Of a stretch of 23,864 nucleotides of DNA, positions 8,280 through 23,864 are shown piece by piece. The notes below the pieces were generated by a model that was not told the origin of the DNA, ran no database searches, and worked only from the letters and a program-made list of their open reading frames with translations. A program made the translations under genes and the position numbers. The DNA is taken from positions 1 through 23,864 of the IMG/VR virus record IMGVR_UViG_3300027396_000090. The stretch is one strand, 5' to 3'. The DNA is from a virus. Every line of letters begins with the position of its first letter. The first letter of the stretch is position 1.

Positions 8280-9145
8280 CAGAGCACATCTCCATCAATC
8301 AGCATCTGAAGCGGATGCTTCTTGCCGAAGAATTCATTGGGCGCCCAAGTGTCGGTCTTGGCGTCGTAGTCGAACCAGGGTGATACGCCGTAGATCAGCG
8401 CAGCTCTGTCATGCGCGGGCATACCGATCGCGCAGGCTCGATGCGGGATGTTGGTGTCCCACGAGTATCCAAAGCCGACCTCGAACCGATGCTCGGCGAT
8501 GTCAGCGTCCCAAGGATTCATCGGCATTCGATCCTCTTTCATGATCTGAATGCGATGCGCCTGAGAGTCAGTTACGTGGATATTCACGCGAAGGTTTTCG
8601 AACACCGGCTCGTCTTTGTGCCAGCCCCAGAAGAAGCTGGAGGGTTGCGGCTGACCGGCGCGAATAAAGGACAGGCGCGACCGGACAAGGCTGCGCTTAA
8701 ACAGCTTCGTGACAAAGCCAAGCTCTTGGGTTGCGACAGGAGATGGATGACGAAACCCATAGGTATCGTAGTAGGAGTTCTGCATCGACCCCACTCTGGC
8801 GATGCTTTCCTTGCTCGCGTAGAACAGCTGCTCTGTGGACAGCTTTTCGCAACCCAAGGTCGAATGATGTGGGTCGCCCTCGCTGTCCGGATTGAACGTC
8901 AAAGACAGGTTTTCGTAGGAGCGATCGAAGCCCTCTGATGAGACGAAGCTGCCGAACTGATAGCGCCCATCAAGTTTGGTCACGACGAGCTCCAGCTCTC
9001 GCGTATCCAAACTCAACGGCACTCGAACAATCTCTCCGGCTTTGACGGGCGACGAAATGTCTCGAGTCGCCTCCTCGAATCGGGTCAATCGCTTCAGCGC
9101 GTCGAATCTGGTTTCGTCCTGTCGGGCAAGCTGGTCAATCGTCAT
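8279..9145 (-). CDS. Third putative 2OG/Fe(II) oxygenase, Asp/Asn hydroxylase-like
   Basis: A 288-residue protein. The C-terminal half looks like a cupin-type oxygenase: WGWHKDEPVFENLRVNIHVT supplies His176 and Asp178, NIPHRACAIG supplies His235, and HDRAALIYG supplies Arg247 for 2-oxoglutarate. The spacing and the R-x-N-I-H strand recall the Asp/Asn hydroxylase group, but it is clearly more distant from the A/B pair than they are from each other. Residues 1-160 (GFDRSYENLSLTFNPDSEGD, QNSYYDTYGFRHPS) may recognise the substrate; I do not recognise them. ATG at 9145 overlaps the stop of the upstream gene as ATGA, and its own stop overlaps the next oxygenase start, so all are in one coupled unit with the tail-fibre genes. 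The substrate is unknown. Confidence 0.72.
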   Translation of the reverse strand: MTIDQLARQDETRFDALKRLTRFEEATRDISSPVKAGEIVRVPLSLDTRELELVVTKLDGRYQFGSFVSSEGFDRSYENLSLTFNPDSEGDPHHSTLGCEKLSTEQLFYASKESIARVGSMQNSYYDTYGFRHPSPVATQELGFVTKLFKRSLVRSRLSFIRAGQPQPSSFFWGWHKDEPVFENLRVNIHVTDSQAHRIQIMKEDRMPMNPWDADIAEHRFEVGFGYSWDTNIPHRACAIGMPAHDRAALIYGVSPWFDYDAKTDTWAPNEFFGKKHPLQMLIDGDVL

Positions 9146-10032
9146 GCCACCGTCAAAGTCACATCCGCAAGTCCGGAGACGTTCTGCGTTCCAACCTTGA
9201 CTCGCATGGTTTCTCCAGCCTCGAGCCCGAGCGGGAATGCCTTGAAACTTGCCACGCCGTTCGTGACTTGGATTCGGCGCTTGTTGACGTAGCCAGCCAG
9301 CGGTTCAACGACCAGTTGCCCGTCATATCCGAAGAGCTTTCCAGTCTGATCGACAAGGCTGACTTCAACCGTTGCTCCGGCCTGAGTTACGGACGCGGGC
9401 GCTTTCAGCGAGATGGAGGGCAGCGTCGAGTAGACCGAAAACCCCGTAGAGGTGTTGGCCCATGTTCCGACGGTTCGGTCCACGAATTTCACAGAGGGAT
9501 GCTCGCTATGGATGAGCGACCACTGTGAAAGAGGCGCTTTCGTCTGTGCGGCGCACAGCGTAAGAAACGCCAGTTTTCCGCGAAGCTGTCCGATTCGACG
9601 GACTGCGGCCTTCGTGCCCTGCCCTTCGACGAAGTGATTGTACGGAGGGTGCGCTTTCCCATCGAAGGCGACAGGAAAAACGATGGCGATGAAGTCGTAG
9701 AGCTCCGCGCTCCCGAACAGGCCGTTGTCGGTCGGCTCTTGGAAGTTGAACCCTTGTCGCTCAACCTCTCGCAGCACCTTACCCTTGAAGATGGGCGTCT
9801 CCGGAAATGCCTCACCCTTGACGAATTGGCCGCCGTCACCCAAGGGCGCGTAGCCAATCCAAGAGGTCATGACCGCAGGCTGAACTTCTTCGGCTGGCGC
9901 TGACGGAGGATTGCCATTGACAACTTCGAAGTGTCTCAGGACCAAACCTCCGTCAACCTGCTCGAGCAGCGCCACTCGCTGAGGGTTGTCGCTGAACTCC
10001 ACTTCAGGACGTTTAATCAGGTATTTTTTCAT
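9142..10032 (-). CDS. Unknown protein with C-terminal Ig-like domain, fibre operon
   Basis: A 296-residue protein. I do not recognise the first 200 residues (MKKYLIKRPEVEFSDNPQRV; SAELYDFIAIVFPVAFDGKA; RGKLAFLTLCAAQTKAPLSQ). The last 90 or so residues look like an Ig-like/invasin-type beta-sandwich: SISLKAPASVTQAGATVEVS, QLVVEPLAGYVNKRRIQVTN, GVASFKAFPLGLEAGETMRV, with a VTLTV end. Such domains are common on phage virion surfaces. It follows the Cys-tailed small protein by eight bases with AAGGA overlapping that gene's stop, and overlaps the third oxygenase gene. It is probably a virion or fibre-accessory protein; the N-terminal part could be an assembly factor or an enzyme. It has no signal peptide or membrane segment. 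Confidence 0.75.
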   Translation of the reverse strand: MKKYLIKRPEVEFSDNPQRVALLEQVDGGLVLRHFEVVNGNPPSAPAEEVQPAVMTSWIGYAPLGDGGQFVKGEAFPETPIFKGKVLREVERQGFNFQEPTDNGLFGSAELYDFIAIVFPVAFDGKAHPPYNHFVEGQGTKAAVRRIGQLRGKLAFLTLCAAQTKAPLSQWSLIHSEHPSVKFVDRTVGTWANTSTGFSVYSTLPSISLKAPASVTQAGATVEVSLVDQTGKLFGYDGQLVVEPLAGYVNKRRIQVTNGVASFKAFPLGLEAGETMRVKVGTQNVSGLADVTLTVA

Positions 10033-10040
10033 CGTAATCC

Positions 10041-10382
10041 TTACTTGCAGGCGCAGTTGCAGTTGTATGCGATGCCCTTGTAGTACCTGTTCAAAGTCAC
10101 AACAGAGCCACCATCCGTAAGGCTTGCATCAACTACCACACAGTTGGCAGAAAGGTTTCCCGACGCGACGCAGTTGCCTTGGTTCGTTGTGGTGTTGCTG
10201 ATGCCCGAGAAGAAGTAGTCATGCAGCCAGCCGTAGTTCGCGGCCCAAATCTGACCTGAGTTGTTGGCGTACATGTCCCAGTTGCCATCGGACTTCAGGA
10301 AGCCCATGACGCCGTTGTTGTGGACAGATCGCGTGTTGCCGTTTGCGATCTCGACGGTTGTACTTTTGAGTGCGGAGCTCAT
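10041..10382 (-). CDS. Small distal tail protein with Cys-rich C-terminus
   Basis: A 113-residue protein. The middle part, GFLKSDGNWDMYANNSGQIW followed by AANYGWLHDYFF, is a motif known from fibre and tip proteins of siphophages. The second half is Thr/Asn-rich with Cys71 and Cys81. The end is GIAYNCNCACK, with Cys108, Cys110 and Cys112 alternating. The alternating cysteines suggest disulfides, metal binding or a chemically modified tail; nothing in the sequence decides. The ATG at 10382 overlaps the TGA of the tail fibre (ATGA), so it is coupled to the fibre and likely assembles with it. It lies in the same unit as two oxygenase genes. It has no signal peptide. It may be a detached C-terminal domain of the fibre. 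Confidence 0.78.
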   Translation of the reverse strand: MSSALKSTTVEIANGNTRSVHNNGVMGFLKSDGNWDMYANNSGQIWAANYGWLHDYFFSGISNTTTNQGNCVASGNLSANCVVVDASLTDGGSVVTLNRYYKGIAYNCNCACK

Positions 10383-12298
10383 TTCATCCCCTTCAGTTCT
10401 TCAATGTCCTTGCGAAGCTGGATCACCTCGTTGGCCAGCGCGATACAGGCTGTCAGCGCGGCATTGCCGTAGGAGACAGCGAGCTTTCCATTCTTGTCAG
10501 TCGTGACTGCTTGAGGCATGACGAGCTGCAGGCTTTGAGCCGACACACCTACCTGTGTGGCGGTGATGTCGAGACGGTCGTACACGCCGTGCTTCACTTG
10601 AGCCAGGCGACCGATGAAGTCGGTCGGCAGGTCGCGCCAGTTGGTTTTCAGGGTCTCGTCCGAAGACGCCGACACATCGGCTGCACTGCTGATGCCACCG
10701 CTCACGTAGAGGCTGTTTGCGATGGTCGTTCCGCCCGAAGCGTTCAGGTACAGGTTGTCATCGCCATCGTTGGTGACGCCAATTTCCAGGACAGTGTTCT
10801 CACCCGTCTCGGCGTAGTAGCGAATCCAGGCCAGATCGCCGCTGCCGCCGCCAGGATTGGCGCCGAACTCGATACCACCCGTCGAGCCGGCCGAGACAGT
10901 CGTCTTGCCCGTGAAGCTCTTGTTTCCGCCGATGGTCTGATCGCCGGTCGTGTAGACGCCGTTAGTCACGCTGGCAGCGTTGCCTGTACATGAGGCAGAC
11001 GAGCCGGTCACGTTGATTGACCATGTGCCAGATGCGTTGGCGCCAGTCGTTGACGGTGCGCCGACCGAGTTGTACGAGATCGTGCGAGCGGTCCCGCCGT
11101 TGAAGGTCGTGCCGCTTGCTCCGCCCGTGCCGTCAGTAGCAAAGGTCAGCGATTGCGGAGTGGCCGCAGTGATCGTGATGCCCGATGTGCCGTCGAAGTT
11201 GACGCCGTTGATGGCTCGAGCCGTCTGCAGCCGCGTGGCGCTACCTGCGTTGCCGGTCGTGTCCTGGTTCAGTGTGGCGATGTAGCCGGCCGCAATCACA
11301 TTGCCCTGCCAGCTCGAGCCCGTGCCAATCGTCTTGTTGGTCAGGGTCTGGGTGGCGTTGGTGCTCACCATGATGCGGGTGCCGGAGCTCGTGCCCAGAA
11401 CCAGCGTATCGTCATCCGTATCCCATTCGATACGACCCTCGGCGACCGGAGCCGCCGACGTGGACTGAACCAGCGTGATCGAGGTGCCGGAGATGGCACC
11501 GCCCGTGATGCTGACGTTGTCGGACGCCTGTGTCGCGATGCTGGCGATGCCGAGATTGCTTCGTGCGGTCGCTGCGGTTGTCGCGCCCGTGCCGCCGTTG
11601 GCCACAGGAATGGCCACACCACCCCAGTTACTACCGGCCCCGAATGTCTTGTTCGTGAGCGTCTGCGTGCCGTCGGTATCGACGAAGGTCTTCGTGGACG
11701 TTCCAGTGCCTACGCGCAGCAGATCGTTGTCCGTGTCCCACTCGATTGCGCCCTCGGCGGTCGGTGCGGCCGTGGTTGATTGCAGCAGTTGAATGGTTGT
11801 GCCGGAGATTGTGCCTCCGGTGAGGTTGACCGAGTTTGCGTTCTGGGCCGCTACCGTACCGATGGCGGCGGTCGAGACAGCTGTCACCAAGCCTTTGGCA
11901 TTGACGGTGATGATTGGGACCGCCAGCGCAGACCCGAAGCTACCCACGTTCGAGTTGACTGTGGCCAGCGTGGTCGCGAAGCTGATGTTGCCCGAGCCGG
12001 TCCAGGCCGCAGAGGTGCCCGAAATGTCCCCGGTCAGACCGATGGTACGACCCGTCTTCCAGGCTTCAGCTGTGGCGACGTTGATCTGGTACAGCGTCGA
12101 GAGCGCGTTCCAGGCAGTGCCGCTGTACTTTTCCCAGCGAGCGTTGGCCGAGCTCCAGCGAACCGTGTTGACGGGCACGTTGGACAGCGTCGTGACCGCA
12201 GGGTCGAGCATGTACGCCAAATCCTTCAGCCGAGCGTCCAGCTCGGCCGTGTAATTGACGTATGTCGAAGCGGTTGTTGGAAGGGACCAGTTTGCCAT
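10379..12298 (-). CDS. Tail fibre with C-terminal S74-type autocleaving chaperone
   Basis: A 639-residue protein. The N-terminal 65 residues (MANWSLPTTASTYVNYTAEL) probably attach to the tail. Then come Thr/Ser/Gly/Asn-rich beta repeats such as DGTQTLTNKT, IPVANGGTGATTAATARSN and GDQTIGGNKSFTGKT. About residues 546-639 form an intramolecular chaperone of the S74 type: SDETLKTNWRDL with the Ser-Asp cleavage site, then QVGVSAQSLQLVMPQAV, GKLAVSYGNAAL and the terminal helix ALANEVIQLRKDIEELKG. Such chaperones trimerise the fibre and then cut themselves off. A promoter-like sequence lies upstream (12350-12322). The Shine-Dalgarno is weak. An internal duplication is listed separately. It should mediate contact with the host surface. 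Confidence 0.9.
   Translation of the reverse strand: MANWSLPTTASTYVNYTAELDARLKDLAYMLDPAVTTLSNVPVNTVRWSSANARWEKYSGTAWNALSTLYQINVATAEAWKTGRTIGLTGDISGTSAAWTGSGNISFATTLATVNSNVGSFGSALAVPIITVNAKGLVTAVSTAAIGTVAAQNANSVNLTGGTISGTTIQLLQSTTAAPTAEGAIEWDTDNDLLRVGTGTSTKTFVDTDGTQTLTNKTFGAGSNWGGVAIPVANGGTGATTAATARSNLGIASIATQASDNVSITGGAISGTSITLVQSTSAAPVAEGRIEWDTDDDTLVLGTSSGTRIMVSTNATQTLTNKTIGTGSSWQGNVIAAGYIATLNQDTTGNAGSATRLQTARAINGVNFDGTSGITITAATPQSLTFATDGTGGASGTTFNGGTARTISYNSVGAPSTTGANASGTWSINVTGSSASCTGNAASVTNGVYTTGDQTIGGNKSFTGKTTVSAGSTGGIEFGANPGGGSGDLAWIRYYAETGENTVLEIGVTNDGDDNLYLNASGGTTIANSLYVSGGISSAADVSASSDETLKTNWRDLPTDFIGRLAQVKHGVYDRLDITATQVGVSAQSLQLVMPQAVTTDKNGKLAVSYGNAALTACIALANEVIQLRKDIEELKGMK
11309..11815 (-). 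repeat. Internal tandem duplication in the tail fibre
   Basis: Two copies of about 60 codons, roughly 11815-11625 and 11502-11309, share ISGT, LLQST/LVQST, AAPxAEGxIEWDTD, and TQTLTNKT followed by GSNW or GSSW. Between them lies VANGGTGATTAATARSN. The similarity is visible in both DNA and protein. Such duplications lengthen fibre shafts and give recombination sites. Confidence 0.65.
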
Positions 12299-12321: not shown

Positions 12322-12350
12322 ATGTTATGTCATTTGTGACTGACCGTCAA
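12322..12350 (-). promoter_or_regulatory. Promoter-like site upstream of the tail fibre, with palindrome in spacer
   Basis: On the minus strand TTGACG (12350-12345, 5/6) and TAACAT (12327-12322, 4/6) are separated by 17 bases. Transcription would start near 12315, shortly before the ATG at 12298. The -35 overlaps the stop of J. The GTCACAAATGAC palindrome lies inside the spacer. It is a sequence match only. Confidence 0.45.
12329..12340. repeat. GTCA-N4-TGAC palindrome, copy 3
   Basis: GTCACAAATGAC on the minus strand, between J and the tail fibre. The outer GTCAC and TGAC are kept while the middle differs from the other copies. It sits between the -35 and -10 of a promoter-like sequence, where a bound repressor would block transcription. 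Confidence 0.5.
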
Positions 12351-15300
12351 TAACCACGGGCTGCCCACGAGTAGTTGCCCGCCACTTGGTTTCCGGCGTC
12401 GTCGAACAAAAAGACGTTGAACCGGATTGGATATGAGGTGTCGGCGAAATCGCAGACCGGAGCCGGCGGGTTGGTTGTTCCGAGCGGTGAAGCCTGAATC
12501 GAGGTCACGTCCAGGAATTCGACATTGAACAGGCTTGTGCCGCCATTCTTGGTCGCGCAGCGCAGGAGGTAGTCGATCTTGTCGTCAGCGTCCGCAGCGG
12601 CGCAGGGAATGACCACGGGTCGCGCCATGTATTGCACTTCGGACCCAGAATTAGTCGGATTGTAGTAATGGTAGGAGCGCATCATCAGGCTCGTCGCACC
12701 GGCGGCGAGCTTGAATTCCGTTCCGTTGACCACTTTTGCGCCCGTCATGTCGTACACGCCCGCGATGCCGACGGACGCGCCGGCATAGCTGGACGGATGC
12801 ACGTAGCCCACGACCAGATACCAAGTGTTGAGCGCCGGCAGATCGCCGCTCCAGAAGTACGGGTTGCTGTCCGTTGCTCCAGCCAGCGTGCGGATGGTGC
12901 CGTTGGGGTTCGTTCCGAAGTAGGACGTGCCGGAGTTGGCGGTTGTTTTCATCAGAACGGCAAACAAGTGGCCCTTGGTCGGGTCGATCGTGGCGTAGCT
13001 ACCATCCCAGCCGCCGTCGGCATCAGAGCCGGCATCGCTGTCGATACAGGCCCACATCTGCTCCAGGTTTCCGCTCGGGCCGGCGCGCAGCACAATCGAG
13101 TTCTCGGCTGCCGTGCCGTTCAAGGGGTAGCCCTCGGGTGGCATGGTCATGCCAGGCACCCAGGAGTCGAAGTAGTCGTGGATCACGCTGCCCTGCGGGT
13201 GTGCACCACCCAGGGTCGCTACGCCACGACCTGCATCGCTCTTGATCTTGGAGTCGAGCTTCACGTTCAGGCGAGTCAGGCGGTACAGCGACTTGTCGTT
13301 GCCAGAGACCGTGACTCGGACTTTCACATAGCGGAAATTCGACACGTACGCCGAGGTCGAGTCCGGATAGTCGATCCAGGCGTCGCCCAGATTGGCCTTC
13401 ACGCTGATGTCGGTACGCAGAGCCGGCGTGCCGGCCACGTTCGATCCTGTCACCGTGACGCTGACCTTCGTGCCGCCAATCTTGGCGCCGTAGTCGATGG
13501 TCTCTTCGTAGTAGCCAGGGCTGAGCGCCGGCTGGATGAAGACGGGGTAGCCGGCTGCAATCTGACTGTCCGGCGAGCTCCAGCTGCGGCTTGTGAAGTG
13601 CTGCTGCTGGGTCTCTGTGGTGTTCACCGGCAGCACGTACGAGCCGTCAGTGTCACGAACGGCGTTCACGAAGGTGCCGGCCGGCGCGTTCTCCGTGCTG
13701 ACCAGATCGTTGTCGGCCTTCAGCACGTAGTCGGGCGGCTGAGAAACGGTCACAGTCACCGCACCGGCGGCGCCGACGTTGCCAGCCGAGTCGATGCCAG
13801 CCACCAAGTAGGTGTAGGTGCCGCCTGCGGTTTCGAAGATGGTCGTGAATCCACCGGCCTTCTGGCCGATGTGTTCGGCCGTCTCCCAGGTGGCGCCGCG
13901 ACGGAACTCATATGTCGTGACCGGCAGTGTGCCGGTCGAAGCCGCCCAGTAGAGCAGCACGTTGTTGTCCACGACCTGCTGGGTGACAGTGGGCGCGCTT
14001 GGCGCCGAGATGGTGAACACCTTCGATGCTTGTGCGCCCACGTTGCCGTTCACGTCGATCGCGGCGACCCACCATGTACGCGAGCCCAGCCACTTGGCCT
14101 TGGTCGAGATGGTCGTGCCCTTGACGCGACCGAAAACGGTGCCGGTGGCCCATGAGTCGCCGTAGCGAATCTCGTACTGGTCGGTGGGAAGCGTGCCTTG
14201 AACGGCCGTCCACTCGAGCCGGAACTCGTCCAGAACGAAGCCGCCGTCCACTACAGGAGCAGGCGCCGCCACTACTGTCACGACTGACTGCCCTGCCGCG
14301 CCGACGTTGCCGTTGACGTTCTTGGCGGCAACCCAGTAGCTGCGATCACCGATGAAGTCGATCGGAGCGCGGTATGTCGTCGTGAGCGTGGTGGCGACCA
14401 GCACGCCAACCTCGAACGCGGCGCCGTAGCGAATCTCGTATTCCTTGATGGGCAGAGTAGAGGATGGTGTCGTCCATGTCAGCTCTGCCTTGGCGACGAC
14501 AACGCTGCTCGTGACCGAGGGTGCTTGAGGCACGGTTGTCGTCACGGTGACACTTGCCGACGTGCCAAATTGACCGTTGGTATCGACAGCAGTGACCCAG
14601 AGCTTGCGAGCTCCGAGCCAGGTAATCGGCACGGTGATGGTGGTCGATGCGGTGCGCCCGATGATCTCGCCGGACTCCCAGTCGTTGCCGTAGCGCACGT
14701 CATAGAAGTCGATCGGAAGCGAGCCTGACTGTGCGGCGGACCACGACAGCACTGCGTCAGCCTGGACGATCTTCGAGTTCAGGTTTTGCACCGCCGCATA
14801 CTTCGAGTAGGCGACTTCGATCGAGCCCGCATTGCCGTATGCACCTGCGGAGTTGATCGCGGCCACCCAGAATGTCTTGACGCTGGTCCAGGTCACGGGA
14901 ATGGAGTACGACCGATCCGTGGTGAAGCCCAGAGGCGTGCCCGTTGTCCAGGTCGCACCTTCGCGCACTTCGTACTGAGCGATGGGGAGCGAACCAGTTG
15001 TGGGTGCGCCCCAGCTCAGCACAAGATTGCCGTTCTTGAAGCTCGAGCCAGGCGTCACAGGGCCAGGGGCCGTGATCGACGAGATGTACTGAGTGGACGG
15101 ACCCACGACACCGTTGATGTCCACAGCTCGGACATGGAAGGTCGCAGACTCTTCCCAGTTGACCGTCACCGTCGTGGTGGTTCCGTAGACTTTGGCAATC
15201 ACGGCTCCAGTGTCGAAGTCTGCGCCACGACGAACTTCGTAGAAGTCGATCGGAAGCGTGCCTTCTGCTCCGCTCCAACTCAACTTCAGCTCGCCAGTCG

Positions 15301-18300
15301 CAATCGAGCCGGTGACAATCGGAGCCACAGGCGGGGTGACGATGAGCGAAATGCTCGCCGGCGTACCCATGTTCTCATTGGCGTCGTATGCGGCAACCCA
15401 ATACTTGCGCTCGTTCTGCCAGGTTGCCGTCACAGGCAACTGCAGGCCGCTGATTCGCGCTGCGACGGTGCCGCTCTCAAAGGAAACGCCGTAACGAATC
15501 TCGTAGCCCGCGATCGGCAGCGAGCCTACAGGCGTGGACCAGGCGATCGTGAAGACACCCGCTTTGATGGACTTGGTCAACGTCACGGCCGCAGGTGCCG
15601 AGAACGCGATGGGCGCGAACCCTTCTTCGCCGCTGGTGTCGGAAATATCGACAGCTCTCACCCAAATCTTTTGCGCGCTGTTCCAGCTCACGCGAATCTT
15701 GTAGGACGTGTCGGTGGTTGTGCCCACAAATTGAGCAGATGCGAACGTTTCGCCGCGACGCACCTCGTAGTGCTTGAGCGGCAGAGCGCCCAGCGTCGGC
15801 GCGTTCCAGGACACGATCAGATCGGTGCCGGAGTACGCGGCGGACGGCGTCACTTTGCCAGGAGGCTCAATGGCGATGGTCGCCCGAGTCGCGTTGGCGC
15901 TGTAGTTGCCGTTCGAGTCGATTGCCTTGACCAGCCATTGATACTGCGCGTTAGTGGGCAGCGTGGGCACCTGATGGACCGCCGTCGTGACGGTTGCGAT
16001 CTTGGTTGCCTGTTCCCAGCTCTGACCAATGACGGCGCACTGACGCACTTCGTATCGAGACACATCCTCGTCGGGCACGGCGTTCCAGGACAGTTCGACG
16101 CCTCGCTCGTTCGCTATGGCGTTGAAGCCTGTCACGTCCGACGGTGGCGTGCGCTTGCCTTGAACGGTGAAGTTGACGTAGGTGGTGGCCGAGCGCTTGC
16201 CCAGCGGGTTGATGCCGGTGATGCTGATCTCGTATTGGCCGACAGCAGCATTCAGAATCTCGTACGACAGACCGTCCGAGACACGAATGACCGTCCAGTT
16301 GCTGCGGTTGGATGTGCCCACGCCACGGTAAGCGACTTCGTATGTGGTCGAGTCGCCTGTCCATGTGACGATCATGCGGTTCGCGAACACGCCAGGCGCG
16401 GCGCGGTAGATGGACTCCACCACGCTGACGCTGACCGGAGCCTGCACGAAGTTGGGGTCCAGAATCGACGTGTTGCGCTCCTCGAGCCGAATGCCCTGCT
16501 CGATCGCGGCAAACTTGCTCGGATTGTGTTCAAGCGCCGTGATTTCGAACTCGCTGGGGTTCTGGCCCTGGGCGATACCGATGACGCGGGCCAGGATTGG
16601 CTCCAGGTTCGGCTCGGAGACCATCCACAGCGCGTTGTCCACAGGCGTCTGAGGAAGCGGCGATACCCAGTTGACGGTCGAGTGGGTGCCCACGCCCTCA
16701 TTGAGCGTGCGATCAGCAAACGTGCCATCAGGCAGCATGATCGAGATGGTTGCGGGCGTGGACGAGATCGTCAGAGGTGCGTCGAGCACGGCCTGCGTAC
16801 GAAGACTGTTCACGCTCATCAGGCGGCCGGCGGTGCGACGACCTGCGCGGCTCTGATCTTGAATCTTGATGATGTTGCCAGGCACAACGAAGGCCGAGTC
16901 GATACCCACCTTGAAGGTGATGAAGTCGGACTCGAACTTCTCGGTGTACAGAATCCAGCGGCCGACGCGAGCAGCCTGGCCACGCGATGTGCAGCCAAAA
17001 GCCAGCGTGTCGAGCTTCTTCACGCCGTACTGACCCACGAGCTCCGGGTCTTCGACGTACTCGATCTTCTGGCGGTAGAAGTCGTTCGGGTCGTTCCATG
17101 TCACATGGACGACACTGTGACGGTCCTTGCGAGCGCTGCCGGTGTAGTTGAACTGGCCGTCGATCACGTTGGCGTAGCTGTAGAGCATCACCGGATCGGA
17201 CGGAGCGTCCTGAGTGAACTGCACCATGCCGCCGTCCCAGAAGCCCATGCCTCGGAACACGGATGCGATGTCGGAGACGAGCTTGTAGGCATCCGCAAGG
17301 TTCTGAATGACCGCATTCAGCACGAAGCGCGGCTCGACCCCGCCAAGACCGTTGGGCACGAGCTGATCGCAGTAGCGACCGATGGTGTACAGCATCGCCT
17401 TATCGACCTGGGTGTCGCTGATGAAGTTGCCCAGTCCGTAGCGGGAATTCGTCAGCACGTCGAACATGACCCAGGCGGGGTTGTTCGAGACCGCCCACTT
17501 GAACGAGCCATTCCAAACGCCCGAGTAGCTGCGAGCTACGGGGTCGTAGTTGGACGGGACGCGAATGTACAGGCCGTCGATCAGGTATGAGCGCGAAGGC
17601 ACCTGATTGAACTGCTGGGAGTCGATCCTCAACCCGAACAATGCCGAGTTGGGGTAGTTCATGTTGAGCGTGACAATCTCGGCGTACGAGTCCAAGTACG
17701 TCTCGTTCTGCAGGAGTGCGCTCGTGGCGTCGTCGGTGATTCGGGTCATGCGAATTCGCACGGACGACGCGCCAGGGGTGATTCGCAGGATGTGGGCTCG
17801 CTGGTAGCGCGAACGCGACTTGCCTGAGACGGTGATGGTCGGCGTGGCGTTGTTGCGACGAACTTCGCCGCGCTCGATCGTGAAGGCGTTGCTCGAGCGC
17901 CCGACGATCACGAATCGGACCATCGAATAATTCGACTGGACGCTGTACGTCTCGGAGTTGTTGACCATCCCGTAGCCATACTCGTCGCCGTAGCTGTAGT
18001 AACTGATGTTCAGCCGCTTTACGCCGGACAGGTTTACCCATGCCGACCCAGTCCACTCTTGAGCCTGAACGTCGATCCAACCGTAGGTTTCCCAGTTGGT
18101 TGTCGCGCCCTTGATCGTGACGTGCAATCCGACAGCACCCGGAGCGCTGGCGGTCTCGTAGCCGCTTTGCAGCGACCAGGCGTTTGCAGCATCTGACCAT
18201 TCGGTGCCGGCCGCAACGTCGATGAACTCTCCACCGTTGGTGGAGATGGCAAACTTGTATTGGACCGTGGTGCCGCTGATGTCGCCGTTGTCGCCGTTTG

Positions 18301-18643
18301 TGACGGTGAGCGCGGGCAATGTCACGATGGCTCGAATCGCGTCCGCGTTCGGATTGGATACGGTGAAGGTGTAGGGCAAGTCCTTCTTGACGTTGACGCC
18401 GACGTTGAACGGAGCCTCGACATAGTTGCCAAAAAGCGGCATGACCGACTGGTCGTTGGAGCCGTTGCGAAAGTCGGCCGTCACGCCCTGAAAGTTGCGC
18501 GTGCCGTTCGGGTTCTCCAGAGGCGTCTCGTTCAGGTACACCGACTTCAGGCCGTTGACCAGCCCACCGATCGGCCCTTCGCCGATCAGATCGAGCAGGG
18601 TCAGCGTCGCTTTGGACCGTAGGGAGTCTTTTGCCTCATTCAT
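12347..18643 (-). CDS. J: J-type tail tip / central fibre protein (host specificity)
   Basis: A 2098-residue protein, nearly twice lambda J. The N-terminal 720 or so residues match the tip-attachment part of J proteins: LRSKATLTLLDLIGEGPIGG, SVYLNETPLENPNGTRNFQG, LYIRVPSNYDP, SFKWAVSNNPAWVMFDVLTN, YGLGNFISDTQVDKAMLY and VEPRFVLNAVIQNLADAYK. Two FN3-like domains follow (about 735-928), then eight tandem FN3-like repeats (about 930-1636). The C-terminal 460 residues are beta-rich, include a lectin-like part (LNTWYLVVGYVHPSSYAG) and probably bind the receptor. In lambda, three J copies close the tail tip and contact the receptor. The ATG at 18643 overlaps the TAA of the I-type gene (TAATG). Gene position and the N-terminal motifs make the call firm; the receptor is unknown. 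Confidence 0.95.
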   Translation of the reverse strand: MNEAKDSLRSKATLTLLDLIGEGPIGGLVNGLKSVYLNETPLENPNGTRNFQGVTADFRNGSNDQSVMPLFGNYVEAPFNVGVNVKKDLPYTFTVSNPNADAIRAIVTLPALTVTNGDNGDISGTTVQYKFAISTNGGEFIDVAAGTEWSDAANAWSLQSGYETASAPGAVGLHVTIKGATTNWETYGWIDVQAQEWTGSAWVNLSGVKRLNISYYSYGDEYGYGMVNNSETYSVQSNYSMVRFVIVGRSSNAFTIERGEVRRNNATPTITVSGKSRSRYQRAHILRITPGASSVRIRMTRITDDATSALLQNETYLDSYAEIVTLNMNYPNSALFGLRIDSQQFNQVPSRSYLIDGLYIRVPSNYDPVARSYSGVWNGSFKWAVSNNPAWVMFDVLTNSRYGLGNFISDTQVDKAMLYTIGRYCDQLVPNGLGGVEPRFVLNAVIQNLADAYKLVSDIASVFRGMGFWDGGMVQFTQDAPSDPVMLYSYANVIDGQFNYTGSARKDRHSVVHVTWNDPNDFYRQKIEYVEDPELVGQYGVKKLDTLAFGCTSRGQAARVGRWILYTEKFESDFITFKVGIDSAFVVPGNIIKIQDQSRAGRRTAGRLMSVNSLRTQAVLDAPLTISSTPATISIMLPDGTFADRTLNEGVGTHSTVNWVSPLPQTPVDNALWMVSEPNLEPILARVIGIAQGQNPSEFEITALEHNPSKFAAIEQGIRLEERNTSILDPNFVQAPVSVSVVESIYRAAPGVFANRMIVTWTGDSTTYEVAYRGVGTSNRSNWTVIRVSDGLSYEILNAAVGQYEISITGINPLGKRSATTYVNFTVQGKRTPPSDVTGFNAIANERGVELSWNAVPDEDVSRYEVRQCAVIGQSWEQATKIATVTTAVHQVPTLPTNAQYQWLVKAIDSNGNYSANATRATIAIEPPGKVTPSAAYSGTDLIVSWNAPTLGALPLKHYEVRRGETFASAQFVGTTTDTSYKIRVSWNSAQKIWVRAVDISDTSGEEGFAPIAFSAPAAVTLTKSIKAGVFTIAWSTPVGSLPIAGYEIRYGVSFESGTVAARISGLQLPVTATWQNERKYWVAAYDANENMGTPASISLIVTPPVAPIVTGSIATGELKLSWSGAEGTLPIDFYEVRRGADFDTGAVIAKVYGTTTTVTVNWEESATFHVRAVDINGVVGPSTQYISSITAPGPVTPGSSFKNGNLVLSWGAPTTGSLPIAQYEVREGATWTTGTPLGFTTDRSYSIPVTWTSVKTFWVAAINSAGAYGNAGSIEVAYSKYAAVQNLNSKIVQADAVLSWSAAQSGSLPIDFYDVRYGNDWESGEIIGRTASTTITVPITWLGARKLWVTAVDTNGQFGTSASVTVTTTVPQAPSVTSSVVVAKAELTWTTPSSTLPIKEYEIRYGAAFEVGVLVATTLTTTYRAPIDFIGDRSYWVAAKNVNGNVGAAGQSVVTVVAAPAPVVDGGFVLDEFRLEWTAVQGTLPTDQYEIRYGDSWATGTVFGRVKGTTISTKAKWLGSRTWWVAAIDVNGNVGAQASKVFTISAPSAPTVTQQVVDNNVLLYWAASTGTLPVTTYEFRRGATWETAEHIGQKAGGFTTIFETAGGTYTYLVAGIDSAGNVGAAGAVTVTVSQPPDYVLKADNDLVSTENAPAGTFVNAVRDTDGSYVLPVNTTETQQQHFTSRSWSSPDSQIAAGYPVFIQPALSPGYYEETIDYGAKIGGTKVSVTVTGSNVAGTPALRTDISVKANLGDAWIDYPDSTSAYVSNFRYVKVRVTVSGNDKSLYRLTRLNVKLDSKIKSDAGRGVATLGGAHPQGSVIHDYFDSWVPGMTMPPEGYPLNGTAAENSIVLRAGPSGNLEQMWACIDSDAGSDADGGWDGSYATIDPTKGHLFAVLMKTTANSGTSYFGTNPNGTIRTLAGATDSNPYFWSGDLPALNTWYLVVGYVHPSSYAGASVGIAGVYDMTGAKVVNGTEFKLAAGATSLMMRSYHYYNPTNSGSEVQYMARPVVIPCAAADADDKIDYLLRCATKNGGTSLFNVEFLDVTSIQASPLGTTNPPAPVCDFADTSYPIRFNVFLFDDAGNQVAGNYSWAARGY
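13735..15855 (-). repeat. Eight tandem FN3-like repeats of about 88 codons in J
   Basis: Each unit has the pattern L-x-W-(8-9)-LP-(4)-YE(V/I/F)R-x-G, then a Thr-rich strand, then W(V)-A-(2)-D/N-x-N-G-x-x-G. Examples are GSLPIAGYEIRYG, GTLPIDFYEVRRG, GTLPTDQYEIRYG and GTLPVTTYEFRRG. The spacing is close to 265 bases throughout. The units have diverged, so the array is not a recent expansion. It would form a long stalk holding the receptor-binding end away from the tail. Confidence 0.85.
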
Positions 18644-19221
18644 TAGACGGGAACCTCATCGACAGAAATTGAGGCCGAGATCGTGTGCGAGCCAGTCATC
18701 ATTCGACCGTAGACGAGCGGAACCGGAGCGCCCTGCTTCTCGGTGTTGGCAGGGCCATCGAAGTAATAGGACGTTTCGTTGCCTTCGTCGTTGTTCTGAG
18801 TCTTGGGGCGAGGGCTGAGCGCCTCGATTACGCCACCCAAAATGAGCGCCGCGCCGATCTTGTACAGGTACGGCGACCAGGGGCCAGGCACGAAGTACCC
18901 AACGGCGATCATGATCGCCCCGACAATGATCTTGGCCACGCCACTTGCGCCGGCCACGGTGGGCGTGAATCGAATCTCTTTGAGATTCTTGCGGATCAGT
19001 TGGTACGACTCGTCCGACAGGTCTTCCTCGTGGTCGTCCTCATAGACGCACGTCACGCGGTAGGCGTTGTAGGTCTCGATGTTCTCGACGACCCAGCGGC
19101 GCAGCCCAGGCTTGTTCGCCTCGATCATGCGAAGCGCTTCGGCAGGACTGGAGACTTCGAACTCCCAGTCCTTTCCGAATTTCTTTCCCATGACGCCATC
19201 GAGGCGAACTTTTGTCAGCAT
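18643..19221 (-). CDS. I: Tail assembly protein I-like
   Basis: A 192-residue protein of the lambda tail-assembly I type. The N-terminal 90 residues (VRLDGVMGKKFGKDWEFEVS, PAEALRMIEANKPGLRRWVV) form a small alpha/beta domain, and then ASGVAKIIVGAIMIAVGYFV and YKIGAALILGGVIEALS form a hydrophobic, glycine-rich stretch of two helices. The C-terminal third includes YYFDGPANTEKQGAPVPLVY and GSHTISASISVDEVPV, typical of this family. It is needed for tip assembly and in lambda is not a major part of the finished virion. It starts within the last codons of the K-type gene (7-base overlap, ATGCTGA) and its stop overlaps the start of J, giving tight translational coupling K-I-J. Confidence 0.9.
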   Translation of the reverse strand: MLTKVRLDGVMGKKFGKDWEFEVSSPAEALRMIEANKPGLRRWVVENIETYNAYRVTCVYEDDHEEDLSDESYQLIRKNLKEIRFTPTVAGASGVAKIIVGAIMIAVGYFVPGPWSPYLYKIGAALILGGVIEALSPRPKTQNNDEGNETSYYFDGPANTEKQGAPVPLVYGRMMTGSHTISASISVDEVPV

Positions 19222-19958
19222 TTCGTGCGGTGTCTCAGATGTAACTTGACCCTGGAGTACCAGTAAGGCCCGAATGTCTCGCGTCTCGACAGGCGATTCA
19301 CGAGATGGTGAAGAATTATATCACCCGTGACATACACCGCAACGTGATTTGCCACATCCGAATTCATTGCAATGGCCAGCGCATCGCCATGCTTAAACGT
19401 ACCGTCAGTGACTTCGATGAAACCTTGGGACGCCCAGTGATCGCCCAGAATGTCGTAGCCCTGGTTCCACCACTGGTTGATGCGAAGCTCGGGAAACCGA
19501 TGCAGCTTGATGCGGAACTCGCGCTCGTAGAAGTCCGTCAATAGCGAGTAGCAATCGAAAGTGCCAAACACATAGGGTCGGCCAATGTAATCGGCTCGCC
19601 AGCCGTCGGGCGTCAGCAGCTGCGGACCGGCATGCTCGAAACCGCCCTCGCCTCTTCGAATGCCCGAGATCAGCCAGGGCAGCTCCGTGAGATTGCAGCC
19701 GGCGCGGTCGAGCTCCGATGGATCAGGCGTGGTGTCGGGGTGCGAATGCCAGATGGCCAGGATTTCGCCGGCGTCTTCTGCGGCGGCGTAGTCGTGGTGG
19801 TTGATGAAGAACTGCTCACCAGGCTGTTCGGCGCCGTTGCGGGCCGGCATGAAGACTGCCTTCTTGCCGACACCAATGACGAAACCGCACGCCTCTCGCG
19901 GGTAGCACGTTTGCGCGTGCTCACGCATGGCTCGAGTCAGCTCGTCACTGAGTTCCAC
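19215..19958 (-). CDS. K: Tail assembly protein K-like, JAMM plus NlpC/P60 domains
   Basis: A protein of about 247 residues with two catalytic domains. The N-terminal half is a JAMM/MPN metallopeptidase: Glu in YPREACGFVIG, then HSHPDTTPDPSELD, matching HxH-x7-S-x2-D zinc ligation. The C-terminal half is NlpC/P60: YVFGTFDCYSLLTDFY with the catalytic Cys, and HVAVYV with the catalytic His. In lambda, K acts at the tail tip and may cut peptidoglycan or process tip proteins. I prefer the GTG at 19958, which has GGGAG six bases upstream. A TTG at 19982 would add eight residues but has no visible ribosome site. The gene overlaps L by 14 bases and the I-type gene by 7. Confidence 0.9.
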   Translation of the reverse strand: MELSDELTRAMREHAQTCYPREACGFVIGVGKKAVFMPARNGAEQPGEQFFINHHDYAAAEDAGEILAIWHSHPDTTPDPSELDRAGCNLTELPWLISGIRRGEGGFEHAGPQLLTPDGWRADYIGRPYVFGTFDCYSLLTDFYEREFRIKLHRFPELRINQWWNQGYDILGDHWASQGFIEVTDGTFKHGDALAIAMNSDVANHVAVYVTGDIILHHLVNRLSRRETFGPYWYSRVKLHLRHRTKC

Positions 19959-21147
19959 GCACCGCTCCCGGAAAGCCGCCAAAGCGCACGGGTTGTGTGC
20001 CGAATCGAATCCGGCATGCCGACAGTGTCTTGGCGCATACGTCCGTCAGCGGTGTCGCGGGGTTGTTGTTAGCGTCAAAGGGTGCGCCGGCGTAGCCGCA
20101 CTCGGCGCTTCTGTAGCGCCACGGGCAGCTGTTCTGGATGATCTGACGCGAGGGCAGCTGGTGGCCCATCAGGTCGAAGGCCGAGGACAGCTCGAACTCG
20201 ATCACGTAGCGGTTTTCGCTGACCTTCTGCTCCACAAACCAGATGTCGTCGGCGATGTACTGGTTGGGGTCGGCGGTCGCGTTGCGACGAAAGCTCTGTC
20301 CGATCTCCTGGTAGTCGGTCAGCACATCGTCCTCGAGCTGAAAGCCATACCAGCGGTGGTACTGGTCGGAGATCGGGTACATGTGACAGTTGATGGTGCC
20401 GGCCGTCTGCGGCGTGAACGTCATCCAGAGCCGATACCAGCCGTCGTTCATCGGCACGACTCCAGACGCGCTGACGGCGCCTTGAGCCACGCTCTTTTGA
20501 CCTGTGAGCGGCACAATGTCCACGTACGCGGCGGTGAATGCGCCGCCGGCGCCCCATGTGCCATCCACGTAGATGCGAACAGGCAGCTTGTCGTTCTCCG
20601 GCTTGACGTGCAGCGAGTAGGTGTACTTGGCGCCGGCAAGACCAGGCACGCCGGTGTACCGAGTCGCGTTGAATTGGCTGGTGAGCGAGGCGGTCAGACT
20701 GCCGTCAGGCGCACTTTCGGTTGTTCCGATGATGGTCAGGCCGTTGTTGACCCAGGTGTTCGCAGTCGGCGCGGACGTGTGCGTCAGCAGATTGCGGCGA
20801 GCGGGGAAGTTCTCCTCGTCCAGATACTTGGCGAACGTGCGCTTGCGGGTGAGCTTGCAGCCCACGAAGTCGTTGAAGGACTTTACCGAGGCCGACAGCA
20901 GCCCGTTGACGTTCGCGATCTTGATCTTGGGGCGAGGCGCCGAGCCCTTGGTGGTCACGTCGAACCCCGTCGCCTCAATCGGCAGAGGTTCGTAGGTCTG
21001 CCCCTGCCACACGACCGGCTGAGACAGTCCGTTCGTGCCGGCGTGAAAGCGCATCACCGAGCCGCCAGGCATGTTCGTCGTATCGAGGATGAACAGCTCC
21101 AGCAGCGCGGAAGGCGCCAGCGATTGAATCTCCTGACGAATGCTCAT
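19945..21147 (-). CDS. L: Minor tail protein L-like with inserted beta domain
   Basis: A 400-residue protein, much longer than lambda L (about 232). Residues 1-115 (MSIRQEIQSLAPSALLELFI, GQTYEPLPIEATGFDVTTKG, LTRKRTFAKYLDEENFP) and about 290-400 match the L family. The C-terminal part has four cysteines (NSCPWRYRSAECGY, DVCAKTLSACRIRFG), the set known in lambda L to hold an iron-sulfur cluster. Between them lies an insert of about 170 residues (LLTHTSAPTANTWVNN, YTYSLHVKPENDKLPVRIYV, DGWYRLWMTFTPQTAGTINC, YHRWYGFQLED) that looks like a jelly-roll, carbohydrate-binding type domain. Its ATG overlaps the stop of M (ATGA). It should form the tip ring with J. The insert may be exposed and bind surface glycans. 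Confidence 0.9.
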   Translation of the reverse strand: MSIRQEIQSLAPSALLELFILDTTNMPGGSVMRFHAGTNGLSQPVVWQGQTYEPLPIEATGFDVTTKGSAPRPKIKIANVNGLLSASVKSFNDFVGCKLTRKRTFAKYLDEENFPARRNLLTHTSAPTANTWVNNGLTIIGTTESAPDGSLTASLTSQFNATRYTGVPGLAGAKYTYSLHVKPENDKLPVRIYVDGTWGAGGAFTAAYVDIVPLTGQKSVAQGAVSASGVVPMNDGWYRLWMTFTPQTAGTINCHMYPISDQYHRWYGFQLEDDVLTDYQEIGQSFRRNATADPNQYIADDIWFVEQKVSENRYVIEFELSSAFDLMGHQLPSRQIIQNSCPWRYRSAECGYAGAPFDANNNPATPLTDVCAKTLSACRIRFGTQPVRFGGFPGAVRGTQ

Positions 21148-21479
21148 GCTTCGAACACCTGCTCAAAATCCAGCGAGATGACGTTGTGACCCTGCTTTCG
21201 GGACAGCTTCCACGTCCGACACACGAAGACCTTTGTCTCGCCCAGTGGCGTCGTCCAGTAGAAGCTCTGCACGCCATTGCGAGCCCGAACGAACGCCAGC
21301 ACATCCGGAAACTGAGTCGTCGTCCGCGAGAACGTCAGGCTCCACTTCTCGGGACGGTTGTTGATGCCCTTCGGAGTGCGGAGCTCGTAGCCGTCGCCGA
21401 ACTTCGTGATTGTGATGTCAGGCTCTTCGGACAGCTGCGAGTCCCACTCGGGGCGCCATGAGAATGTCGGTCGTGTCAT
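21144..21479 (-). CDS. M: Minor tail protein M-like
   Basis: A 111-residue protein of the lambda M family: MTRPTFSWRPEWDSQLSEEP, ITKFGDGYELRTPKGINNRP, KWSLTFSRTTTQFPDVLAFV and LDFEQVFEA. Length, beta-rich pattern and the FxDGYEQR-like segment fit. M forms part of the ring linking the tail tube and tape measure to the tip. It follows the tape measure gene after a 15-base gap filled by the repeated GTCACGGATGAC motif, with no strong Shine-Dalgarno sequence. Its stop overlaps the start of L. It may be the distal tail protein equivalent for this phage. Confidence 0.92.
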   Translation of the reverse strand: MTRPTFSWRPEWDSQLSEEPDITITKFGDGYELRTPKGINNRPEKWSLTFSRTTTQFPDVLAFVRARNGVQSFYWTTPLGETKVFVCRTWKLSRKQGHNVISLDFEQVFEA

Positions 21480-21480
21480 T

Positions 21481-21497
21481 GTGTCATCCGTGACTTA
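21481..21497. repeat. 17-bp junction repeat with GTCA-N4-TGAC palindrome, copy 4
   Basis: Identical over 17 bases to 3798-3814. It fills the gap between the tape measure stop and the M start on the minus strand. The core palindrome is 21483-21494. A weak promoter-like pair (TTTACC, 16 bases, CACAAT) can be drawn across it but is not convincing. Confidence 0.7.
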
Positions 21498-23864
21498 TCG
21501 GTAAAGCACGCCACCAGGGCGCTGCTGTGAAACCAGCTCCTCCATCACGACGCCGCGCACGCGCTGGGCCATCTCGCGCCAGGTTTCGACGTTGTCGCCC
21601 TGGGCGTCGGACGAGCCGCTGCCGTCGTTGTTGATCGTGATGTTGATGATGGCGTTGCTGCCACCGCCCATGCCGGACATCGTCACAGGGATGGAACGAC
21701 CGTCAGGCAGCGGCACGTAGGCTTCAGGCATGCGACCCTCGCCGAACAGAGCGAGCTGCGGACTGTTGGCAATGCCGCCGTTCGCATACGCCTTGAGCGG
21801 AAGCGGGCCGGCACTCGTCATCACGCCACCGTCTGCAAAGCCAAACAGGCTCGCGCCTGCTGAACTGGCGATTGCGGCCATTGCGGCAGAAGTCTCGAGC
21901 GCCATCGTTGTCATGGCGATCGACGTTTCTGTCGTCATCGTTGTGAGCGCGACCGTGTGTTCCGTTGTCATCGTTGTCATGCCGACAGTCATGTCGGTTG
22001 CTACGGCAGTCATCGCGGCGGTTGTTGCGCCGGTCATAGTCGTCATGGCCGTGGTGACGGCCGCAGTCTGAGTGGCTTGACCTGCTGCGCCGGCAGCGCT
22101 GCCGCCCAGACCCAGCATCTCGGTCATCTTTCCACCGAACGAGCCGAAGGCGCTGGTAATCATGTCACCAAAGCCTTTCTTGATGACGATACCAAGCATG
22201 TCACGAGCGATGCCGGCGGCAAACTCCTTGAACTTGAACGAGCCGCCAGCGAGCATGTCCACCAGGCGATCGGTGAACGATGACGCCCAGCGTGCCGTTG
22301 CGCCATCCATCGCCTGTGTTGCCTTGGACCACTCGTCAGCCAGCATTTGCAGCTGGGTGCGCGAGTTGGTCTGGAAGTTCAGCAGCGCAGCCTGACGCAT
22401 CTCCTGAGTGGAGGTGTCGATGATGGACATCTGCTGCAGGAACTGCTCGGTGGTCATGCTGGTTGTGGCCAGCAGGTTGAACGTCTCTTCCTCGCGACGG
22501 TTCTTCAGCGCCTCGATGCGCTTGATCTCCTCGTCGTACTCGTACTTGCGGAGCTCCACGTTGCTCATCGTCGCCTTCAGGGCGTTGCGCTGAGCTTCGC
22601 GCAGGATGTTGGCCGAATCGACACCCATCTTGTTGATGTCAACCTGATTGGCGTCCACGAGCGCCTTGTCGCGCATCGCGGTGAACATCCGATAGGCTTC
22701 GGTGCCCTGCGTGACGGTGGCTTCGAGCTTCTTGACGCGCTTGATCGTCTCGTCGAGGAAGCTGTTTTCCTTGACCAGACCGCGATTGACGAACTCCTCG
22801 GCCGAGCGAGTGAGCGCATCCGATGTGTCGATGCCGACCTGCTTGATCGCGTTCAGGGCGTTGATGGAGTCATCCACGCTCTTCTTGTCGATCATCTTGG
22901 ACACGATGTCCTTGAACTGCGCCTTCTCCTTGAGCGTGGCCAGGCTGTCGATGAAGGCGTTGATGTCGGTTTTGCCCTCGGCAATGAATGCGCGGAAGCG
23001 GTTGACGAACTCCTTGCGCTCCTTCTCACCGCCCATGCGGGTGGGCACCATCTCGCCCTCGGCGTTCTGGACGCGCTCATCGAACTTGCCGGCGGCCAGG
23101 TCGCCCAGGGCCTCGAACATCACCTGTTGCTTCAGGCTGTTGAGGTCACGGGCGTCGCTCAGCGTGGCGGCGAGCTTGGCCTTGGCGGCGGCCACCTCCC
23201 CTTCCAGCTGCTCGGCCAGACGGATGATCGGGCTTTCCTTGAGCGGTTTCTTGGGGTCTTTCGCGGCAATGCCGATGCGACCCAGATTGCCGGCAGCCTT
23301 CAGTGCATCCGATGCGGCACGAATCTGGTCATTGACGAACTGACGCTGAGCCTCGAGCACCTGCTTCTGGCGCGGGTCTTTCGCGGCAGCAATCGCCTCG
23401 TCGATCTCACGCTTCTTGCCTAGGGCGAAGTCCAGCAGGTACTGCTCGCGAGCCTTGACCAGCGCATTGCGCTTGTCGATGAACTGCTTGGAGATGGCTT
23501 CGCGCTCGCTCTCGGTGATCTTGCGACCGGAGGCTTCGGCGCGGCGAGATGCGGCGTCGATAGCATCCTTCTCGGCCTTGTCGAGTTCGGCGGACTGGTT
23601 GCGAAGCTCATCCACGCGACCCTGCGTCTCGCGACGGAAGGTGCGCTGGTATTGCGACAGGTCTTTGGAAGCCGCGTCCTCATCCAGCAAACGCTTTTGC
23701 TCGCTGAACTGAGTCGTCGCCTGCTCGTAGATGCCCTTCTTTTCCTTGAGCTGAGCTTCGATGGATGCGCGGTATGCGGCAACGTCCGCACCGCCTCGAT
23801 TATCACGGAAGCCTGCGCCCAGGGCACGGCTGATCGAGCGGGGAGCGCTCGCGCCATCCTTGTC
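21495..23864 (-). CDS. Tail tape measure protein, N-terminus outside window (partial)
   Basis: The frame is open to the right edge, so only the last 789 residues are seen. Most is charged alpha-helix and likely coiled coil (FRRETQGRVDELRNQSAELD, EQYLLDFALGKKREIDEAIA, IKRVKKLEATVTQGTEAYRM). Near the end ARWASSFTDRLVDMLAGGSF and IARDMLGIVIKKGFGDMITS are typical of lambda-type tape measures. A Thr/Met-rich repeat follows, then GGIANSPQLALFGEGRMPEA and YVPLPDGRSIPVTM, the usual C-terminal block. It sets tail length and leaves the tail with the DNA. A TTG at 23690 is not the true start; the frame continues upstream without a stop. The gene is followed by the 17-bp repeat and M. Confidence 0.95.
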   Translation of the reverse strand, partial: DKDGASAPRSISRALGAGFRDNRGGADVAAYRASIEAQLKEKKGIYEQATTQFSEQKRLLDEDAASKDLSQYQRTFRRETQGRVDELRNQSAELDKAEKDAIDAASRRAEASGRKITESEREAISKQFIDKRNALVKAREQYLLDFALGKKREIDEAIAAAKDPRQKQVLEAQRQFVNDQIRAASDALKAAGNLGRIGIAAKDPKKPLKESPIIRLAEQLEGEVAAAKAKLAATLSDARDLNSLKQQVMFEALGDLAAGKFDERVQNAEGEMVPTRMGGEKERKEFVNRFRAFIAEGKTDINAFIDSLATLKEKAQFKDIVSKMIDKKSVDDSINALNAIKQVGIDTSDALTRSAEEFVNRGLVKENSFLDETIKRVKKLEATVTQGTEAYRMFTAMRDKALVDANQVDINKMGVDSANILREAQRNALKATMSNVELRKYEYDEEIKRIEALKNRREEETFNLLATTSMTTEQFLQQMSIIDTSTQEMRQAALLNFQTNSRTQLQMLADEWSKATQAMDGATARWASSFTDRLVDMLAGGSFKFKEFAAGIARDMLGIVIKKGFGDMITSAFGSFGGKMTEMLGLGGSAAGAAGQATQTAAVTTAMTTMTGATTAAMTAVATDMTVGMTTMTTEHTVALTTMTTETSIAMTTMALETSAAMAAIASSAGASLFGFADGGVMTSAGPLPLKAYANGGIANSPQLALFGEGRMPEAYVPLPDGRSIPVTMSGMGGGSNAIINITINNDGSGSSDAQGDNVETWREMAQRVRGVVMEELVSQQRPGGVLYR
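21846..22043 (-). repeat. Six tandem 33-bp repeats (11-residue units) in the tape measure
   Basis: In order of translation the units are TTMTGATTAAM, TAVATDMTVGM, TTMTTEHTVAL, TTMTTETSIAM, TTMALETSAAM and AAIASSAGASL. Each is exactly 33 bases, and ACAACGATG begins three of the six. The 11-residue period with Met, Leu or Ala at fixed places suggests a hendecad coiled coil. The codons are similar but not identical. Confidence 0.85.

Follow-up and report, generated by a model that had tools for sequence, protein, structure and literature searches.

An 11-residue Thr/Met repeat in a variable slot of a lambda-type tape measure protein

The C-termini of the tape measure proteins (TMPs) of phages lambda (PMC10721106), T5 (PMC10038345) and JBD30 (PMC11445458) are described as three-helix bundles in the tail tip. 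Tandem 11-residue TMP repeats marked by Trp or Phe have also been published (PMC3271669, PMC5099701); for the TMP of TP901-1 a figure of 0.145 nm per residue is given, and replacement of one 11-residue repeat by Ala left infectivity unaffected (PMC5099701). The subject of this report is a TMP gene carried by IMG/VR virus record IMGVR_UViG_3300027396_000090, of which positions 1 to 23,864 were analyzed (the window hereafter, 23,864 nucleotides in all). The gene lies on the minus strand (21495..23864) and is open at the window end, and the 789 residues present (P0001) include an array of 11-residue units rich in Thr and Met. A hendecad, i.e. a unit of 11 residues, corresponds to three helical turns, and we give about even odds (roughly 0.5) that this array, in the C-terminal part of a TMP of the lambda type, forms an exchangeable helical spacer built of hendecads.

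The published TMP repeats of 11 or 18 residues (Belcaid 2011 PMC3271669; TP901-1 PMC5099701) likewise show an 11-residue tandem period and a fixed hydrophobic marker; however, those repeats, 29 of them in the TP901-1 TMP (PMC5099701), lie in the length-setting region, whereas the five to six units of the window occupy a single slot that precedes the C-terminal block. The marker also differs, Trp or Phe in the described repeats as opposed to Met, Val, Leu or Ile at positions 1 and 4 with Thr fill in the window; no Trp or Phe marks each unit here, although a Trp type is present in the same slot of relatives. The C-terminal region of lambda gpH (PF09718; PDB 8iyk, PMC10721106) is homologous and the gene order H-M-L-K-I-J is the same, but between this region and the ATGG block gpH has only a short stretch rich in Gly and Ala, in which, unlike in the window, no hendecads stand out by eye. 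Met residues also occur in the coiled coil of the JBD30 TMP, where Met1130 and Met1134 of the C-terminal trimer are described around a putative ion (PMC11445458); those residues lie within the last 33, whereas the Met hendecads of the window precede the C-terminal block and have no known ion. The phiX174 H-tube similarly offers hendecad helices in a phage DNA-delivery protein (PMC7354561), but it is a decamer of a different protein. Among the matches listed from the open-licence literature, which are a part of all matches and were screened in part by title and opening of the abstract, neither Thr/Met hendecads in a TMP nor a fixed, interchangeable slot was seen, and the combination of 'tape measure' and 'hendecad' returned only the phiX174 H-tube report (PMC7354561), in which tape measure appears only in the references. 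What is new is the Thr/Met chemistry together with a fixed, interchangeable slot; 11-residue TMP repeats were already known.

An earlier note on this DNA, made from the letters alone, had reported six exact 33-base units. Six in-frame units of 11 residues are indeed present (21846..22043, minus strand; P0001 aa 608-673), reading TTMTGATTAAM, TAVATDMTVGM, TTMTTEHTVAL, TTMTTETSIAM, TTMALETSAAM and AAIASSAGASL, but the exactness does not extend to the DNA. Exact DNA repeats are ruled out by the comparison of the units, which agree pairwise at 10-23 of their 33 bases (in the peptide, at 0-8 of 11 residues), and by Tandem Repeats Finder, which reported no 33-bp array in the window; recent tandem duplication of all units is likewise rejected because the DNA units are too diverged, though units 3-5 have ACAACGATG in common. 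The sixth unit, AAIASSAGASL, is marginal, with only 0-2 residues in common with any other. In the peptide itself the period of 11 residues is plain: over a 78-residue stretch, lag 11 gives 30 identities (12.1 expected) and 13 hydrophobic coincidences (4.2 expected), values reached by none of 5000 shuffles in either case, and the hendecad repeat claimed by the earlier note is thus borne out. When the units are begun at Met, position 1 reads MMMLMM and position 4 reads MVMMMI, such that the Met residues said to be at fixed positions are near-fixed. Hydrophobic spacing within the slot is strong at positions 1 and 4 and partial at position 8, with an opposite strip at position 10.

The array has a definite place in the protein, also observed earlier: it follows the hydrophobic helix region and precedes the conserved C-terminal block. 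On its upstream side lies a conserved 85-residue segment ending in LGLGG (22101..22355, minus strand; P0001 aa 504-588), designated here the anchor, which resembles lambda Tape_meas_lam_C and has two Trp residues invariant in 10 sequences. PF09718 scores 21.6 bits at P0001 aa 504-563, under its cut-off of 23, and the cut-off is passed by a relative, L298, at 24.1 bits. A profile of the last 330 residues (A4) matches lambda gpH 616-728 at E 1e-4 among PDB sequences, a match that spans the anchor plus residues before it; its match to a designed helical bundle is not significant (E 0.09). The anchor is followed by a hypervariable linker of 86 residues (21843..22100, minus strand; P0001 aa 589-674), whose length ranges from 59 to 132 residues in the 15 TMPs measured, and within the linker lies the hendecad slot, here of a Thr/Ala/Met type (21867..22067, minus strand; P0001 aa 600-666; TAAVTTAM...AAIA). 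The conserved C-terminal block comprises the next 115 residues (21498..21842, minus strand; P0001 aa 675-789; GFADGGV...GEG.M.EAYVPLPDGR...RPGG; profiles A1 and A4), with RPGG followed by a short tail at its end, and the 27 named phage records found, e.g. SSU5, Cyrano and nickie, match P0001 from aa 673 onward only. Near the end of this block, a terminal helix (21531..21590, minus strand; P0001 aa 759-778; helix 300-319 of a low-confidence AlphaFold model) likely corresponds, judged by its position, to the coiled coil at residues 818-842 of lambda gpH.

The slot between these two conserved blocks is fixed in place and holds different sequence sets in close relatives. Thr/Ala/Met hendecads fill the slot in the window and in L142, L152, L298 and L145, whereas Trp/Leu/Lys hendecads fill it in L148, L299, L305, L306 and L146; L149 carries a third, Met/Phe/Leu-rich set, and L150, L153, L173 and L307 have linkers of other kinds. 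When aligned, the Thr/Met slots have a common start motif with an invariant QTxAxxxAM, and because of this shared motif the Thr/Met type probably represents one homologous cassette. A search for QTxAxxxAM found it again, with hendecads after it, in L337, and a looser pattern led to L343. Among the 32 frames of at least 150 residues found with the looser pattern, lag-11 scores were high only in L337 and L343 (23 and 19; next best 12) beyond five rows of the known lineages, and this recurrence suggests either cassette transfer or convergence. These two proteins are themselves short TMPs of another family (L337 3669-5009, 447 aa, and L343 7218-8594, 459 aa; both minus strand) that match PHROG 2854 TMP (E 8.6e-9 and 1.5e-7) and carry TTAVTTAMTEM-type hendecads followed by a C-terminal block unlike that of the window; a DUF2460 gene adjoins the L337 TMP.

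Other searches with the repeat brought little. A tblastn search of the slot alone against phages gave nothing at E 10, a result in which the low-complexity filter may hide matches. The MTTM hendecad pattern gave 23 stretches, confined to the L142 lineage and low-complexity frames, and the general MxxM hendecad DNA pattern gave, among the matches listed, mostly unrelated Met-rich frames together with the L036/L109 relatives and Met hendecads in other phage proteins. Met-rich hendecads such as QMRPQMEAMAN and MQKQMTPMMEN were seen in proteins of L037, L042, L082, L044, L099, L057, L139 and L132, some directly after a GERGPEF-like motif, which we take to be typical of TMP C-termini.

Comparisons of slot and flanks suggest how the two chemistries came to share one location. 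The window and L148 share 53/85 anchor residues and 72/114 residues of the C-terminal block but only 5/63 in the slot; conversely, L148 and L305 share 36/85 anchor residues and 44/64 in the slot. L298 and L148 are 76-89% identical in their tip proteins and 76% in the C-terminal block, yet they carry different slot types between common flanks. Across 12 TMPs (66 pairs, or 55 where tip genes are missing, which are not independent of one another), slot identity correlates at 0.15-0.29 with flanks or tip genes, whereas the tip genes M, L, K, I and J correlate at 0.56-0.91 among themselves. Coadaptation of the slot with these tip proteins was sought specifically and none was seen (slot against M, L, K, I and J identity, 0.22-0.29). 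By these identities, the slot seems to be exchanged largely independently of its surroundings, an argument against close tailoring to the tip proteins.

The period persists while the slot sequence changes, and so do two hydrophobic positions. In comparison with L142, the nearest distinct relative (86% identical, with the same array, ungapped over the units), positions 1 and 4 are hydrophobic in both proteins in 12/12 cases and identical in 9/12, as against 32/59 identical residues at the other slot positions. With the register set by the common downstream flank, the hydrophobic coincidence of L298 (Thr/Met) with L148 (Trp) is highest at shift 0 (10/62) and amounts to only 0-2 at the remaining shifts from -2 to 2, suggesting that the two slot types are in the same phase. 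In a scan of 10 of the 15 TMPs, picked for hendecad-looking slots, the peak of the lag-11 hydrophobic signal over the whole protein lies inside the slot in 8/10, straddles the slot edge in L145 and lies elsewhere in L146. The 98-degree helical harmonic exceeds that of shuffles in 10/10 slots (p 0.005 or less), with very strong power in the Trp type (12.4-23.1) and modest power in the Thr/Met type (4.8-8.3). Two AlphaFold runs each drew a single long helix across the slot, spanning P0001 aa 594-668 and 590-669.

From these features we infer a helix, its assembly as a trimer and its place in the tail. Assuming three TMP copies, as in lambda, T5 and JBD30, their slots would pack against each other via the Met/Val strip and make a straight bundle directly behind the tip-bound C-terminal block; at the TP901-1 figure of 0.145 nm, 66 residues would give it a length of about 10 nm. 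Such a bundle would space the C-terminal block from the upstream helices, and at infection the slot copies would exit through the tip after that block. The slot would be needed for its period and length, not for the identity of its residues, and because packing would depend mainly on the period, its sequence would be free for swapping by recombination. Because TMPs are rarely resolved in tails, little is known of which of their parts set the length, bind the tip or cross the envelope. A slot that accepts two hendecad chemistries between conserved flanks amounts to a natural experiment on which features a molecular ruler needs (period, length or chemistry), and it points to separating a length-varying N-terminal part from a C-terminal spacer.

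A number of results weigh against a helical spacer. The phase test is effectively a single comparison with a chance of about 1 in 11, L298 and L148 also show 8 coincidences at shifts -4 and 7, and the comparison of L298 with L305, whose flank has one extra residue, peaks off by one (10/61 at -1 and 0/62 at 0). The strand-like 164-degree harmonic exceeds the 98-degree one in the window (8.3 against 5.0), L142 (11.4 against 7.0) and L152 (7.0 against 6.1), an excess attributable to the second hydrophobic strip at position 10, which faces away from the Met strip; the window also reaches 8.2 at 131 degrees, and the register of L152, read by eye, is broken by four residues. The helices drawn by AlphaFold have very low confidence (mean pLDDT 41.8 and 40.2). 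With respect to exchange, L148 and L305 are also alike in their C-terminal blocks (93/118), such that slot and block may have moved together; slot identities are near chance, itself depressing the correlations reported above; and a poor correlation with J is seen for the anchor as well (0.19). Finally, hendecads are a minority in wider relatives. One scan retained 80 of at least 575 confirmed loci; of 150 loci collected in all, five (L251, L265, L275, L279 and L280) were dropped for want of the C-terminal block motif, and a survey of 154 proteins (145 loci, nine phage TMPs and lambda, with one protein excluded because its block was not located) yielded 91 representatives, 64 with linkers of at least 45 residues. 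Lag 11 ranked top with z > 3 in 4/64 by identity and 3/64 by hydrophobicity, some of these scores containing anchor sequence because a fixed 110-residue stretch was used where the anchor was not located. The linkers of many relatives, the more distant ones included, are instead Gly/Ser-rich, Ala-rich or nearly absent.

The alternative that survives best, though we consider it doubtful, is a permissive, largely unstructured low-complexity linker in which repeats arise by slippage or unequal recombination under weak selection. Those Gly/Ser-rich, Ala-rich or nearly absent linkers and the low AlphaFold confidence would both be expected of it, as would the hypervariability of the slot, in which 27/67 codons differ by residue-changing substitutions between the window and L142 against 12/127 upstream and 22/114 in the C-terminal block; furthermore, a stretch close to the C-terminus of the JBD30 TMP is predicted by the authors of that work to be unstructured (PMC11445458). 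The earlier note had named prediction as a disordered linker as an outcome that would count against it, and the monomer models do not clearly give that outcome, since a helix is drawn, albeit at a pLDDT of about 40. Weak selection sits poorly, however, with units whose DNA has diverged and whose positions 1 and 4 nonetheless remain hydrophobic at all 12 such sites, or with the strong amphipathicity of the Trp/Leu/Lys type at 98 degrees, and slippage alone is not expected to yield one period in two unrelated chemistries.

A membrane role, in which the slot would act during ejection as a 3-11 amphipathic helix bound to the host envelope or inserted into it, is unlikely. Lipid-binding helices do typically show amphipathic repeats of 11 residues. 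In L148, the slot, of the Trp type, drew an Apolipoprotein model, far below its cut-off (E 0.05), and a T5 TMP segment following a hydrophobic stretch is placed at the hub-membrane interface (PMC10038345). The Thr/Met slots, on the other hand, are net acidic (window -4, L142 -5, L152 -8) or uncharged (L298, L145) and modestly amphipathic. Transmembrane segments typically average about 1.6 or more in hydropathy over 19 residues; the best Kyte-Doolittle mean over that length is 1.26 within the slot and 1.38 for a stretch straddling its end, and transmembrane insertion of the slot, which the earlier note had entertained for a Met-rich helix, is rejected on this basis. The strongest hydrophobic candidate lies elsewhere, at residue 584 of the full TMP (L141; mean 1.89) and outside the window, and a segment containing AFGGW is similarly the top hydrophobic segment in 10/10 TMPs examined.

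More speculative is the thought that the slot serves as a conduit, with two-faced helices (strips 1/4/8 and 10) forming a DNA-conducting alpha-helical barrel after ejection and phages swapping Thr/Met and Trp/Lys versions to suit different host envelopes. The partly hendecad H-tube of phiX174 is a precedent for such a barrel, and we hold this reading to be quite improbable.

There is even less reason to regard the array as a tail-length module in which the number of repeats alters the tail stepwise, as the earlier note had proposed. Tail length is generally set by TMP length, and repeat deletions in TP901-1 gave shorter tails (PMC5099701). Nevertheless, the five contigs carrying the window's TMP do not differ in the slot segment, the nearest distinct relative has the same array, and the short TMP L337 (447 aa) has the same kind of array. 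Among 15 TMPs placed by hand, of which L142 was omitted from the correlations as a near-duplicate, TMP length is not significantly correlated with that of the linker (rho 0.42, p 0.13, n=14), whereas it does track that of the N-terminal part (rho 0.93); differences in TMP length thus lie mainly outside the linker, and stepping was rejected. A single unit would also be a small step, as lambda gpH with 853 residues and 32 tube rings (PMC10721106) has about 27 residues per ring and one hendecad falls short of half a ring. Least probable of all is a beta-structured, Thr-rich solenoid or strand bundle, which would accommodate the 164-degree harmonic, strongest in the window and L142, and a Thr content of 33-36%, but which is disfavoured by L298 and L145, where 98 degrees prevails over 164, by two AlphaFold models that are helical, if weakly, and by the prediction that the TP901-1 TMP is largely helical (PMC5099701).

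The assignment of the gene as a TMP, made in the earlier note, was confirmed. P0001 matches PHROG 1292 (tail length tape measure protein) at E 1.8e-44, with its best stretch at aa 666-787, and the gpH match given above agrees; NCBIfam yielded no match to P0001, and its matches to L142 and L148 were all below cut-off. The N-terminus falls outside the window and was taken from contigs 100% identical over the matching part, copies in which (L002-L004) give a full length of about 1447 residues from stop to stop. The TMP gene stands directly upstream of genes for the tip proteins in lambda-type order, all on the minus strand: minor tail protein M (21144..21479; PF05939, E 3.5e-30), minor tail protein L (19945-21147), K-like (19215-19982), I-like (18643-19221) and central fibre J (12347-18643), the last four recognized by Pfam and PHROG matches. 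On these profile matches and this gene order, the product is a lambda-type TMP.

Some further features of the window may be recorded. Protein L has about 170 additional residues between its two Phage_tail_L parts, with matches to PHROG 18 at 1-116, to PHROG 5939 'tail protein' at 117-261 and to PF05100 at 287-395; it aligns over 416 residues with its counterpart in L305, and the best segment covers only 95-120 residues in most other relatives, such that the insert looks variable from these alignments. Downstream of J, a tail fibre-like protein (10379-12298, minus strand) has an endosialidase-type chaperone (Peptidase_S74) domain close to its end. Beyond the tail fibre genes lies a gene for a radical SAM protein (4124-5512, minus strand; PF04055 and PHROG 1802), adjoined by genes for five proteins of 188-296 residues (5509-10032), none of which matches PHROG, except one weakly, or Pfam at the limits used. 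Finally, a small protein (1494-1928, minus strand) combines an HNH-endonuclease-like part with a C-terminal HTH_3 domain.

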